Origin: Romboutsia ilealis
GTDB taxonomy: Bacteria; Bacillota; Clostridia; Peptostreptococcales; Peptostreptococcaceae
DNA length: 64,000 bases
Direction: 5' to 3'
NCBI RefSeq assembly: GCF_900015215.1
Contig: NZ_LN555523.1
Span: 440,415 to 504,414, forward strand
The notes below the pieces were generated by a model. That model saw only the letters and a program-made list of their open reading frames with translations. It did no database searches and was not told the DNA's origin. Of this stretch, positions 5,967 through 10,416 are shown piece after piece (the first letter of the stretch is position 1; each line of letters opens with the position of its first letter). Position numbers and translations under genes: made by a program.

Positions 5967-6881
5967 ATGAGTAAAAGAAGAACGATATACAAAGGATTTA
6001 ATAAAAGAAGAAAAAATAGGATAATAAAGATATATATAATTGGTGCAAGTATATGTCTAATATGTGGGTATGGGTTTATGCAATTTAAAAATAGCAAAAT
6101 ATTTAATAGTATAAAAGAAAATGTTGCATCTATTGAGTTGAAATTACCATTTTTTAATTCAAAAAAATCAGATAATAATAGATTAGAAACTTTTGAGTAT
6201 AATGATATATCTAAAGAAATAGATGAGATTAAAAAAGAGAATGATGAAGTCAATGAGGATGTGAAAGTTGCAACAGTAAAAGGTTGGAATGTATATACAA
6301 TACAAGTAGCATCAGTTGAAGATAAAAATGAAATAAGTGAAATAGAAGCGGTATTAAGTAAAGAAAAAGTACCTTTTTCTACTATAGAGATAGATGGAGT
6401 AAATAAAGTTCAGACATATGTATCATTTGATAAAGAAAGCATAAGAAATTATTTAGAAAGTATAAGAACGTTATATCCAGATGCGTTTTTAGCAGAAGTA
6501 AAAATGCCTGTTTTATCTTTAGAATATACTAGTAAATATTCATATTTAGAAACAATATCAGAACAGTTAAGTAGTCTTATAGATAACTTTGAATTAGAAT
6601 CTAAATTGTGGACTAATAGCAAGGATAATTTAAATTTAAAAGAGTATAATACTATATTAACTAATAGAAAAACTATGGTTGAAAATATAGAAAAAGAAGT
6701 TGAACAAATTGATTATGAAGGAGCAGATGTATTTAAATCTAATTTAATTACATATCTAAATAATGTAGATAAAAATATTGAAGAAGCTTCTAAGTCTGCA
6801 AATGAACAAAAGTATAATATAAGTGAGGGTATATTTCTAAATAACTTGCAAGGTTATTTAGCTTTTATAAATTCTATTTAG
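5967..6881 (+). CDS. SPOR-domain membrane protein
   Basis: A 304-residue single-pass protein. A very basic N-terminus (RRTIYKGFNKRRKNR) precedes one transmembrane segment at about residues 21-40, so most of the protein faces outside. Residues about 108-182 (NVYTIQVASVEDKNEI onward) match the SPOR domain, which binds septal peptidoglycan stripped of stem peptides. The C-terminal 120 residues are predicted helical and are not recognised. A strong AGGGGGGAG precedes the ATG. By family knowledge the protein is probably recruited to division sites or the sporulation septum; the partner is unknown. Confidence 0.8.
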   Translation: MSKRRTIYKGFNKRRKNRIIKIYIIGASICLICGYGFMQFKNSKIFNSIKENVASIELKLPFFNSKKSDNNRLETFEYNDISKEIDEIKKENDEVNEDVKVATVKGWNVYTIQVASVEDKNEISEIEAVLSKEKVPFSTIEIDGVNKVQTYVSFDKESIRNYLESIRTLYPDAFLAEVKMPVLSLEYTSKYSYLETISEQLSSLIDNFELESKLWTNSKDNLNLKEYNTILTNRKTMVENIEKEVEQIDYEGADVFKSNLITYLNNVDKNIEEASKSANEQKYNISEGIFLNNLQGYLAFINSI

Positions 6882-6887
6882 TAAATT

Positions 6888-6915
6888 CAAAAGGTTGTTT
6901 ATACAACCTTTTTTG
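6888..6915 (+). terminator. Terminator after the SPOR-domain gene
   Basis: AAAAGGTTGT and ACAACCTTTTTT form an 8-10 bp stem with TTAT loop and a T-run. Confidence 0.85.
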
Positions 6916-7031
6916 CTTTAGAATAAATAACTAAAATTTGATAAAAAGCAAAACATGTTAGATTTTGGTTGATACTATAGTATAATAAAAATAAATAGAA
7001 TAATTATTTATTTTATAGATAGGGGAGAAAA

Positions 7032-8359
7032 ATGAAGTTTTTAACTTTTAAGGGAGGGATACATACTCCATATAATAAAGAGTACTCAGAAAAAAAGCTA
7101 TAGAAAAAGCAGAAAGTCCAAAAGTAGTATATATACCTCTTCAACAGCATATAGGTGTGCCAGCTAAGGCCATTGTTAAAGTTGGGGATGAAGTTAAGTT
7201 AGGCCAAAAAATAGAGGAGCAACAAGGTTTTGTATCTTGTAACATTCATTCATCTGTATCAGGTAAAGCTATAGGAATTAAAGAACATGAATTACCTGGT
7301 GGAAGAGGTATTTGTATATTAATTGAAAATGACTTTAAAGATGAAATTCATGAAAACGTTATACCGATTAAAAACGTAGAAAATTTAACTAAAGAAGAAA
7401 TAGTAAATATAGTTAAAGAAGCTGGAATTGTTGGTATGGGTGGAGCCACATTTTCAACTCATGTTAAGATATCTCCACATCCAGACAAGAATATAGATAC
7501 TGTTATATTAAATGGAGCTGAATGTGAGTCATATTTAACAGCTGACTATAGGCTTATGTTAGAAAATCCTGAAGATGTAGTTTATGGATTATATATACTT
7601 ATGAAGGCGTTAGATGTAAAAAAATGTTACATAGGTATAGAGGTAAATAAGCCAGATGCTATAGAATCTATAGAAAAAGAAGTTAAAAAATATGACAATA
7701 TTGAAGTTGCAAGGCTTGAAATAAAATATCCTCAAGGAGCTGAAAAGCAACTTATATATGCATGTACAAAGAGAGAAGTTCAATCAGGAAGACTTCCTAT
7801 GGATGCAGGTGTTGTTGTAAATAACGTTGCAACAGCAGCACAAATCGCAAAAACTATAAAAACAGGCATGCCTTTAGTTGAAAGGATAACTACAGTAACA
7901 GGTAGCTGTATAACTGAGCCTAAAAACTTAGTAACTAGAGTGGGGACTTTAGTATCTGAAATAATAGAACAATGTGGAGGTTTCAAAGAAGGTAAAACTG
8001 TTGGAAAAATTATAATGGGTGGACCAATGATGGGGATTGCACAGTATACAATAGACATTCCTACGAATAAAGGTGCGTCAGGAATATTATGTTTAGATGA
8101 GCAGGAGGCAAAAACTCCGAAATCACAAAATTGCTTAAGGTGTAGAAAATGTCTAGATGTATGCCCTGCATTTTTACAACCATTATTCATAAGCGCTCAT
8201 TCATTAAGAAATGATTATGAAAGTGCAGAAAGTTATAGAGCTTTAGATTGTATTGAATGTGGATCATGTTCATTTATATGTCCGGCAAGGAGGCCGTTAC
8301 TTCAATCAATAAGAAATGCAAAAAGAGAAATAATAGCAAATACAAAAACAAATTGCTAA
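7032..8359 (+). pseudogene. rnfC: RnfC, interrupted by a -1 frame break at codon 23
   Basis: RnfC is the NADH-binding, two-[4Fe-4S] subunit of the Rnf ferredoxin:NAD+ oxidoreductase, which pumps ions across the membrane. The proper start (ATG 7032 after AGGGGAG) encodes MKFLTFKGGIHTPYNKEYSE and then hits TAG at 7101. The rest of RnfC runs in the -1 frame and continues as KAIEKAESPKVVYIPLQQH. The switch falls in seven A (7090-7096); eight A would restore one frame. Later parts are normal: MGGATFSTHVK, NGAECE, and C-terminal clusters CLRCRKCLDVCP and CIECGSCSFICP. An indel, sequencing error or slippage on A-AAA-AAG are all possible. The downstream part has no obvious ribosome site of its own. 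Confidence 0.85.
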
Positions 8360-8386
8360 TAAATAGGTTAAATTAGGGGGAAAATG

Positions 8387-8839
8387 ATGGAAAATAAACT
8401 GATAGTATCATCGTCTCCTCATGTGAGAAGTAATCAAGATACATCATATATAATGAAACAAGTTGTAATAGCAACTTTTGTTACTATGGTAGGTATGTTA
8501 CTTAAGGCATATATACCAGCATTAGGTGACGCATTAGGTTTATTTATACCTTTAATAGTTGTTAACTGCTTAATACTAGCTCGTGCAGAGAGTTTCGCAT
8601 CTAAAAACACTCCTATAAAATCAGCAGTAGATGGAATTGGAATGGGCTTAGGATTTACATTAGCATTAACAGCTTTAGGGGTAGTAAGAGAAATATTAGG
8701 TAATGGTACTTTATTTGGAATGGGTTTATTTGGTGCATCTTACCAACCGGCGCTATTATTTATACTACCTCCAGGAGCGTTCTTATCATTAGGATTTTTA
8801 CTTGCAGGGTTTAATAAGTTAAAAAATAAAAAGGCATAG
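8387..8839 (+). CDS. RnfD-RnfE deletion fusion (rnfG missing)
   Basis: This 150-residue frame joins two Rnf subunits. Residues 1-29 (ENKLIVSSSPHVRSNQDTSY and on) are the cytoplasmic N-terminus of RnfD. From about residue 26 (VVIA, bases 8462-8473) the sequence becomes the C-terminal two thirds of RnfE, with FIPLIVVNCLILARAE, the helix DGIGMGLGF and the ending LPPGAFLSLGFLLAGFNKLK. The usual order is rnfCDGEAB, so most of rnfD, all of rnfG and the start of rnfE are absent. RnfD normally carries covalent FMN, as does RnfG, so the product cannot replace either. ATG 8387 is preferred to ATG 8384 for spacing from AGGGGG. It may be non-functional. Confidence 0.85.
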   Translation: MENKLIVSSSPHVRSNQDTSYIMKQVVIATFVTMVGMLLKAYIPALGDALGLFIPLIVVNCLILARAESFASKNTPIKSAVDGIGMGLGFTLALTALGVVREILGNGTLFGMGLFGASYQPALLFILPPGAFLSLGFLLAGFNKLKNKKA

Positions 8840-8851
8840 GGGGAAGAAATA

Positions 8852-9427
8852 ATGAATTTAATACTTTTATTTTTAAGTATAGTACTTGTAAATAATGTTA
8901 TAACTTCTCAGTTTATGGGGATATGTCCTTTCTTAGGTGTATCTAAAAAGGTTGATACGGCTATAGGTATGGGGGCTGCCGTTACATTTGTTTTAACTCT
9001 AGCTTCTTTTATAACATACTTTGTTCAAAAATTATTAGAAATAACAAATAATCAATTTTTACAAACAATAGCATTTATATTAGTGATAGCATCTATAGTT
9101 CAATTTGTTGAGATGGTTATACAAAAGACAAGCCCATCGTTATATCAAGCGTTAGGGGTATTTTTACCTCTTATAACTACAAACTGTGCAGTTTTAGGTA
9201 TAGCACTTGTTAACGTTCAAAATAACTATAATTTAGTAGAAACAATGGTAAATGGATTTGGAGCAGGAATAGGATTTACGTTATCTATAGTTTTGTTTGC
9301 TGGAATAAGGGAAAGACTAGAACTAGCGGATATACCAGAAAGTTTTAAGGGATTTCCAGCAACTATGATAGCGGCTAGTTTAATGTCAATAGCTTTTTTA
9401 GGATTTTCGGGTCTTATAAATCTATAA
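8852..9427 (+). CDS. rnfA: Rnf complex membrane subunit RnfA
   Basis: RnfA is an integral membrane subunit of the ferredoxin:NAD+ oxidoreductase and, with RnfE, holds a membrane-embedded iron-sulfur site. The 191-residue length and six hydrophobic helices are typical. The conserved half-repeats are present: NNVITSQFMGICPFLG near the N-terminus and ITTNCAVLGIAL in the middle, each with the expected Cys. The frame is intact, with AGGGGGAAG before the ATG, 12 bases after the RnfD-RnfE fusion. Given damage to rnfC, rnfD, rnfG and rnfE, whether it still assembles into a working complex is doubtful. Confidence 0.93.
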   Translation: MNLILLFLSIVLVNNVITSQFMGICPFLGVSKKVDTAIGMGAAVTFVLTLASFITYFVQKLLEITNNQFLQTIAFILVIASIVQFVEMVIQKTSPSLYQALGVFLPLITTNCAVLGIALVNVQNNYNLVETMVNGFGAGIGFTLSIVLFAGIRERLELADIPESFKGFPATMIAASLMSIAFLGFSGLINL

Positions 9428-9444
9428 ATTAGGGGGTGAATGTA

Positions 9445-10416
9445 GTGTCGATATTAAGTTCTGTTTTAGTTTTAGGGGCATTAGGGCTGATATTTGGTAT
9501 GGTTTTAGCATATGCTTCTAAAAAATTTGCAGTAGAAGTAGATGAAAGAGTAGAAGCTATTCTTGAAATACTTCCTGGAGCTAACTGCGGTGGATGTGGA
9601 TTTCCAGGTTGCACAGGACTTGCAAATGCAATTGTAGAAGGGTATGCTGACTTAAATTCTTGTCCTGTAGGTGGATCGGATTGTGCATCTAAAATAGGAG
9701 AAATAATGGGTATATCCTCTGAAAGTGAAGAAAGGCAAGTAGCTAAAGTATTATGTAAGGGAAATTGTCAAAGTGCTAAAAATAAATATGAATATGAAGG
9801 GATACAAGATTGTAAATCTGCGAGTATGCTAAATTCAGGTCCAAAGGATTGTAGGTTTGGATGTTTAGGACTTGGAACTTGTAAGGAGTACTGTAAGTTT
9901 GATGCTATTTCTATAATAGATGGACTAGCTATAATAGATGAAGAAAAATGTGTAATGTGTGGTAAATGTATAGAAGTTTGCCCTAAATCTATAATAGGTA
10001 GAAAACCAGCTAGTAAAAAGGTAGTAGTTGAATGTAGTAGCAAAGATTTTGGTAAAACTGTTAAAGAAAAATGTAGTGCAGGATGTATAGGTTGTGGATT
10101 ATGTCAAAAATCTTGTCTATTTGGAGCTATTGAATTTGAAAATAAAATAGCTAAGATAAATTATAAAAAATGTGTTGAGTGTATGGAGTGTGTAAGAAAG
10201 TGCCCTGCTAAGGTAATAAAGGGAGATATTAGCAAGAAACAAAAGGTAGCAATAAATAAAGAACTTTGTGTTGGATGTACAATTTGCAAAAAACAATGTA
10301 AATTTGATGCGATACAAGGTGAATTGAAAGAAAATCATATTGTCGATGAATCTAGATGTGTAGGCTGTCATTTATGTATACAAAAATGTCCTAAAAAAGC
10401 TATTAAAACTATATAA
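9445..10416 (+). CDS. rnfB: Rnf complex ferredoxin-like subunit RnfB
   Basis: RnfB accepts electrons from ferredoxin and passes them into the Rnf complex. It is 323 residues long with one N-terminal membrane helix (residues 1-25), then the Fe-S motif CGGCGFPGC and several CxxCxxCxxxCP ferredoxin motifs: CVMCGKCIEVCP, CIGCGLCQKSC, CVECMECVRKCP, CVGCTICKKQC and CVGCHLCIQKCP. Start is the GTG at 9445, 6 bases after AGGGGGTG; a GTG at 9436 overlaps that ribosome site and is unlikely. The frame is intact. With the rest of the operon broken it might persist as a relic or serve another redox partner. Confidence 0.93.
   Translation: MSILSSVLVLGALGLIFGMVLAYASKKFAVEVDERVEAILEILPGANCGGCGFPGCTGLANAIVEGYADLNSCPVGGSDCASKIGEIMGISSESEERQVAKVLCKGNCQSAKNKYEYEGIQDCKSASMLNSGPKDCRFGCLGLGTCKEYCKFDAISIIDGLAIIDEEKCVMCGKCIEVCPKSIIGRKPASKKVVVECSSKDFGKTVKEKCSAGCIGCGLCQKSCLFGAIEFENKIAKINYKKCVECMECVRKCPAKVIKGDISKKQKVAINKELCVGCTICKKQCKFDAIQGELKENHIVDESRCVGCHLCIQKCPKKAIKTI

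Follow-up and report, generated by a model that had tools for sequence, protein, structure and literature searches.

The frame break in rnfC of Romboutsia ilealis CRIB very probably belongs to a recent, stepwise decay of its only rnf operon

The window, i.e., the whole 64-kb stretch of DNA that was analysed (440,415-504,414 of the chromosome), carries the rnf operon of R. ilealis CRIB, and the features of this operon are collected in Table 1. Translation from the ATG at 7032 gives MKFLTFKGGIHTPYNKEYSEKKL followed by the TAG at 7101-7103, and rnfC continues in the -1 frame. The long open frame at 7094-8359 (421 amino acids) is recognised as RnfC (TIGR01945, E = 3e-153) from profile position 21 to 432, and contains the domain RnfC_N, the Nuo51 FMN-binding domain, SLBB and two 4Fe-4S motifs. 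The run of A at 7090-7096 comprises seven A and is followed by a single G at 7097. The 0 frame across this site reads GAA AAA AAG CTA TAG, from which follows that the heptamer A-AAA-AAG is in codon phase. The break itself, the phase of the heptamer and the expectation that most ribosomes stop after 23 codons had been put forward in an initial annotation of this DNA, and all three agree with the reading frames as given here. A slip by -1 at the heptamer is predicted to yield ...S-E-K-K-A-I-E-K, which are exactly the residues of intact relatives. Among the approximately 53 conserved genes that were compared across the window, rnfC is the only one with a broken frame.

Table 1. Positions of the features of the rnf operon in the window.
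Feature	Position	Strand	Remark
rnfC 5' fragment	7032..7103	+	23 codons and TAG; T replaces the invariant proline of GGxHP
A-AAA-AAG heptamer	7091..7097	+	0 frame; A run 7090-7096; missing base at 3' edge
rnfC remainder	7094..8359	+	open -1 frame; substitutions at invariant positions
rnfD'::'rnfE in-frame fusion	8384..8839	+	about 30 rnfD codons, then rnfE beginning at profile position 69
AGTTGTAATAGCA at fusion point	8461..8473	+	in the rnfD and rnfE copies of the intact sister G002
rnfA, intact	8852..9427	+	domain recognised
rnfB, intact	9436..10416	+	GTG start; domain recognised

To identify the missing base, consider the congeners G001 and G002, which are the nearest relatives whose rnfC is intact. 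In both, the site reads A7-GG-CT, where the window has A7-G-CT, and in the more distant relative G015 it reads GAG-AAA-AAA-GCT. Loss of a G accounts for the window sequence in one event, while loss of an A needs an extra change from G to A, and the lost base was therefore most simply a G. The deletion from A8 to A7 that had been proposed is thus retained as a simple loss of one base, but not with respect to which base was lost. The same comparison bears on the age of the heptamer. Since A-AAA-AAG is in phase also in the intact rnfC of G001 and in that of G002, where the DNA is the same, the heptamer is older than the break. On this comparative evidence it is an ancestral pair of Lys codons, which did not arise to serve a frameshift, and the weight that had been placed on its slippery character is not supported. 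Elsewhere, A-AAA-AAG occurs in phase 5 times in the 16,857 codons of 53 conserved window genes, in no case with a frame break. The rnfC case illustrates how slippery heptamers found where a frame breaks may be left over from ancestral codons.

Downstream of rnfC, the operon lacks the remaining part of rnfD, the whole of rnfG and the first third of rnfE, and the fusion frame at 8384-8839 retains the last two thirds of rnfE. A frame of this kind is easily annotated as merely a short RnfE-like protein. A genome-wide search found neither rnfD nor rnfG elsewhere in R. ilealis CRIB. The sister genome G002 has, at the same chromosomal place, full rnfC, rnfD, rnfG, rnfE, rnfA and rnfB, in the order C-D-G-E-A-B that it shares with the Rnf complex (RnfCDGEAB) of Clostridium tetanomorphum, and the RnfC, RnfA and RnfB domains of these systems are recognised also in the window. 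In contrast to both, the window has rnfC out of frame, rnfD reduced to about 30 codons that are fused to a truncated rnfE, and no rnfG. With rnfCDGEAB intact in G002, the disabling lesions are absent from a close relative, as is the case for pseudogenes.

At the point of fusion lies AGTTGTAATAGCA, which in G002 is matched at 12 of 13 positions in rnfD and at 13 of 13 in rnfE. The two G002 copies are 2135 bases apart and both encode V-V-I-A in the same codon phase, so that a deletion of about 2.1 kb between these short direct repeats gives an in-frame rnfD'::'rnfE fusion. The fusion likely arose in this way, by deletion between 13-bp near-identical direct repeats, although the region also holds longer repeats than AGTTGTAATAGCA. 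Whatever its origin, a deletion of about 2.1 kb has brought the 5' end of rnfD against the last two thirds of rnfE, with rnfG lost between them. The one-base loss in rnfC, in turn, would have come about by common mutation, either replication slippage or an indel, at the edge of a homopolymer. An indel at a homopolymer edge (A7) and a fusion within a 13-bp repeat common to rnfD and rnfE are lesions that the window shares with ordinary pseudogenes, and there is no essential difference between the rnf lesions and those of pseudogenes formed by indel or short-repeat deletion.

RnfD and RnfG bear covalent FMN, and the iron between RnfA and RnfE is bound by four invariant cysteines (PMC9588780). One of these four, the N-terminal RnfE cysteine (GMCPTLGV), falls in the deleted part, so that R. 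ilealis CRIB does not have all the iron-binding cysteines of RnfA and RnfE. Nor does it have the complete set of RnfA, B, C, D, E and G, since rnfD and rnfG are absent, rnfE is truncated and rnfC is out of frame. As judged from its gene content, the operon cannot build a normal Rnf complex, whatever occurs at the heptamer, and full-length RnfC could not restore it. A run of eight A, which had been named as the finding that would make rnfC normal, would accordingly repair no more than the reading frame, as it would bring back neither rnfD nor rnfG nor the lost part of rnfE.

The remainder of rnfC has changed, in addition, at sites where the family is invariant. When the 161 post-break RnfC columns that are invariant in 28 family rows are considered (a few of the genomes may be duplicated), there are 9 differences in the window, against 3 in G002 and 2 in G001. 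Of these changes, V80A, P142S, P150H, P167S, G199C, P251Q and G372R are seen in the window alone, and one is seen in G002 alone. Most of the seven are non-conservative (P142S, P150H, P167S, G199C, P251Q and G372R), and G372R sits in the first 4Fe-4S motif. In the 5' fragment, the proline of GGxHP, which is kept in 44 of 44 relatives, is replaced by Thr (P12T). The counts behind the excess at invariant sites (7 vs 1, or 8 vs 1) are small, and the overall dN/dS of rnfC against G002 is not high (0.17). In rnfA, rnfB and the rnfE part, the changes at invariant sites are hardly above those of the sister G002. From this small degree of change, together with the low dN/dS of rnfC, it follows that the loss is probably recent. 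For rnfA, rnfB and the rnfE part taken by themselves, the little decay would mean either that the lesions are recent or that something still uses these genes.

If the one-base loss were an error of sequencing or assembly at the homopolymer, then rnfC would be intact in the cell. The missing base lies at the edge of the A7 run, which speaks for an error of this kind. Illumina reads do not favour homopolymer errors. Also, the only frame break among the approximately 53 conserved genes is located in the very operon that carries an independent 2.1-kb deletion, and both P12T and the decay of RnfC at invariant sites are independent of the indel. The assembly of R. ilealis CRIB combined 454, Illumina paired-end and mate-pair, and PacBio RS reads (PMC5598433); the 454 and PacBio RS data add to the probability of an error and the Illumina data reduce it. 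Taken together, these observations make an error improbable.

The distribution of rnf genes in the family gives the background against which these lesions are to be seen. In Peptostreptococcaceae, rnfC is found above cut-off in 68 of 71 genomes. In 67 of these 68, the first matched profile position is 1-3 and no stop interrupts the frame; in the window alone, this first position is 18. When the count of rnfD is limited to genomes with a completeness of 90% or more and a contamination of 5% or less, the gene is present in 58 of 60, and the two exceptions are R. ilealis CRIB and G001.

G001 has the rnfD'-rnfE' fusion at the same place, but beside an intact rnfC. Such a pair of genomes, together with the good preservation of rnfA and rnfB, could suggest a conserved and working minimal Rnf of the genus, made up of a reduced C-(D'E')-A-B module. 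The evidence that G001 contributes is, however, of a particular kind. The DNA of its aligned blocks is mostly 82-90% identical to that of the window genome, yet over 64 kb there is no indel larger than 12 bases, and across 2.5 Mb its coordinates do not depart by more than about 750 bases from those of the window genome. In ten sampled 20-kb pieces of G001, N makes up about 33 kb. Among these are kilobase runs of N that stand where the window genome has sequence, with the reference spacing kept. G002, by comparison, has several kilobase differences from the window genome in the same 64-kb stretch, and its dS to the window is about 0.2-0.4, versus 0.35-0.95 for G001, which makes G002 the closer genome in nearly every gene compared. 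On this pattern, G001 is most likely a consensus for which the R. ilealis chromosome served as reference. A reference-guided consensus cannot display sequence that its reference lacks. When the consensus is built on the window genome, gene absences in G001 therefore become untrustworthy, and its missing rnfDGE is not evidence. The nearer relative G002, furthermore, keeps rnfDGE intact, and a minimal Rnf would have to work with neither RnfG nor nearly all of RnfD, and with one iron-binding Cys of RnfE missing. A conserved minimal Rnf was rejected, since G001 follows the layout of the window genome with N in its gaps, and we give it a very slight chance.

Two further candidates were discarded in connection with the fusion. 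Its transfer by recombination between the window genome and G001 would leave a tract in which these two genomes share sites, and the site patterns around the junction contain no such tract. G003 was considered as a third genome with the fusion and is uninformative, as it has a contig end on either side of the rnf operon.

A mechanism to consider for a frame break on a slippery heptamer is programmed -1 ribosomal frameshifting of the dnaX type, which here would yield full-length RnfC. The rnfC site has the same heptamer as E. coli dnaX, in the same phase, and a -1 slip there restores the ancestral residues exactly. In E. coli, moreover, A_AA.A_AA.G ranks with the heptamers that shift most readily, given stimulators (PMC4066793). 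Stimulators of this kind are what the rnfC site lacks. RNA 3' of the heptamer does not fold better than its dinucleotide shuffles (z = 1.54 over 60 nt and 0.17 over 100 nt), so that there is neither a stem-loop or pseudoknot signal downstream nor a stimulatory structure 5-8 nt past the heptamer, in accordance with the earlier remark that no clear stem-loop follows. A Shine-Dalgarno-like stimulator is likewise missing at about 10 nt upstream of the heptamer; the nearest purine-rich sequence, AGGGAGGG, ends more than 30 bases upstream, as had been noted, which is not the usual distance for a stimulator. An Rfam scan of 6850-8400 gave no match, and a promoter scan nothing in excess of shuffles. 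Nor is the layout in two frames conserved, since rnfC is a single open frame in each of the other 67 family genomes that have it above cut-off. The rnfC site differs from dnaX also in that its heptamer predates the frame break: it is present already in the intact relatives, in which slippage at this site would do harm. Finally, the partner subunits with which a full-length RnfC would assemble are missing from the genome, with no rnfD or rnfG and a truncated rnfE. Programmed frameshifting was rejected for want of a stimulator and of conservation and because the heptamer is ancestral, and it must be regarded as exceedingly improbable. The caution that the initial annotation expressed on this point, based on the missing stimulator and on a simple loss of one base, was well founded.

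Transcriptional slippage on the A7 run, by which some transcripts would gain an A and thereby regain the frame, is an extremely unlikely alternative on similar grounds. A run of seven A in a genome rich in A+T is in its favour, but the intact relatives carry the same A run and no function remains to restore. Seven A is also short for efficient transcriptional slippage. For another locus of the same strain, that of beta-fructofuranosidase, ribosomal slippage on a homopolymer was suggested in the genome paper (PMC5598433).

The heptamer of rnfC has, from all this, no regulatory role and is incidental to the break. A small fraction of ribosomes may pass through at it. That a leaky shift on the ancestral A-AAA-AAG keeps a little RnfC, which together with RnfB and RnfA would carry out a residual, non-pumping electron transfer after the loss of RnfD and RnfG, is conceivable but most unlikely.

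We are thus left with an ordinary mechanism, which is loss of a sodium or proton pump and not a regulated frameshift. The fusion, the loss of rnfG and the substitutions at invariant sites of RnfC together imply that the Rnf complex has been lost, and that the frame break belongs to this loss. The only rnf operon of R. ilealis CRIB is, with high probability, undergoing a recent and stepwise decay. The initial annotation was right in that the break is real and has no stimulator, but it missed the rnfD'-rnfE' fusion, the absence of rnfG and the invariant-site changes in RnfC. As to the order of the lesions, our guess is that rnfC was hit first and that the large deletion came later. Both would have become tolerable in a fermentative gut lineage that had ceased to depend on Rnf. 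The lesions are known from one strain with a trustworthy assembly, R. ilealis CRIB, a bacterium of the rat small intestine with a chromosome of 2,581,778 bp, and the published picture of the species is that of a carbohydrate-dependent small-intestinal fermenter (PMC5598433). The main text of that genome paper does not mention Rnf, and a literature search, judged from match lists, found no earlier report of Rnf loss or of an rnfC frameshift.

The type strain of this common small-intestinal genus is, then, most probably without the Rnf pump that is found in nearly all other members of the family. This corrects the metabolic annotation of R. ilealis and matters for metabolic models of Romboutsia. 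One [FeFe] hydrogenase is found over cut-off in the CRIB genome, and this remaining enzyme could serve as an alternative outlet for reduced ferredoxin. In G002, a second Nuo51-type protein adjoins a second [FeFe] hydrogenase, and R. ilealis CRIB has neither of the two. The RnfG protein is about 338-341 amino acids long in G002 (L113), L034 and L035, apparently with a second FMN-binding-like domain, and about 190-200 amino acids long in the other relatives examined.
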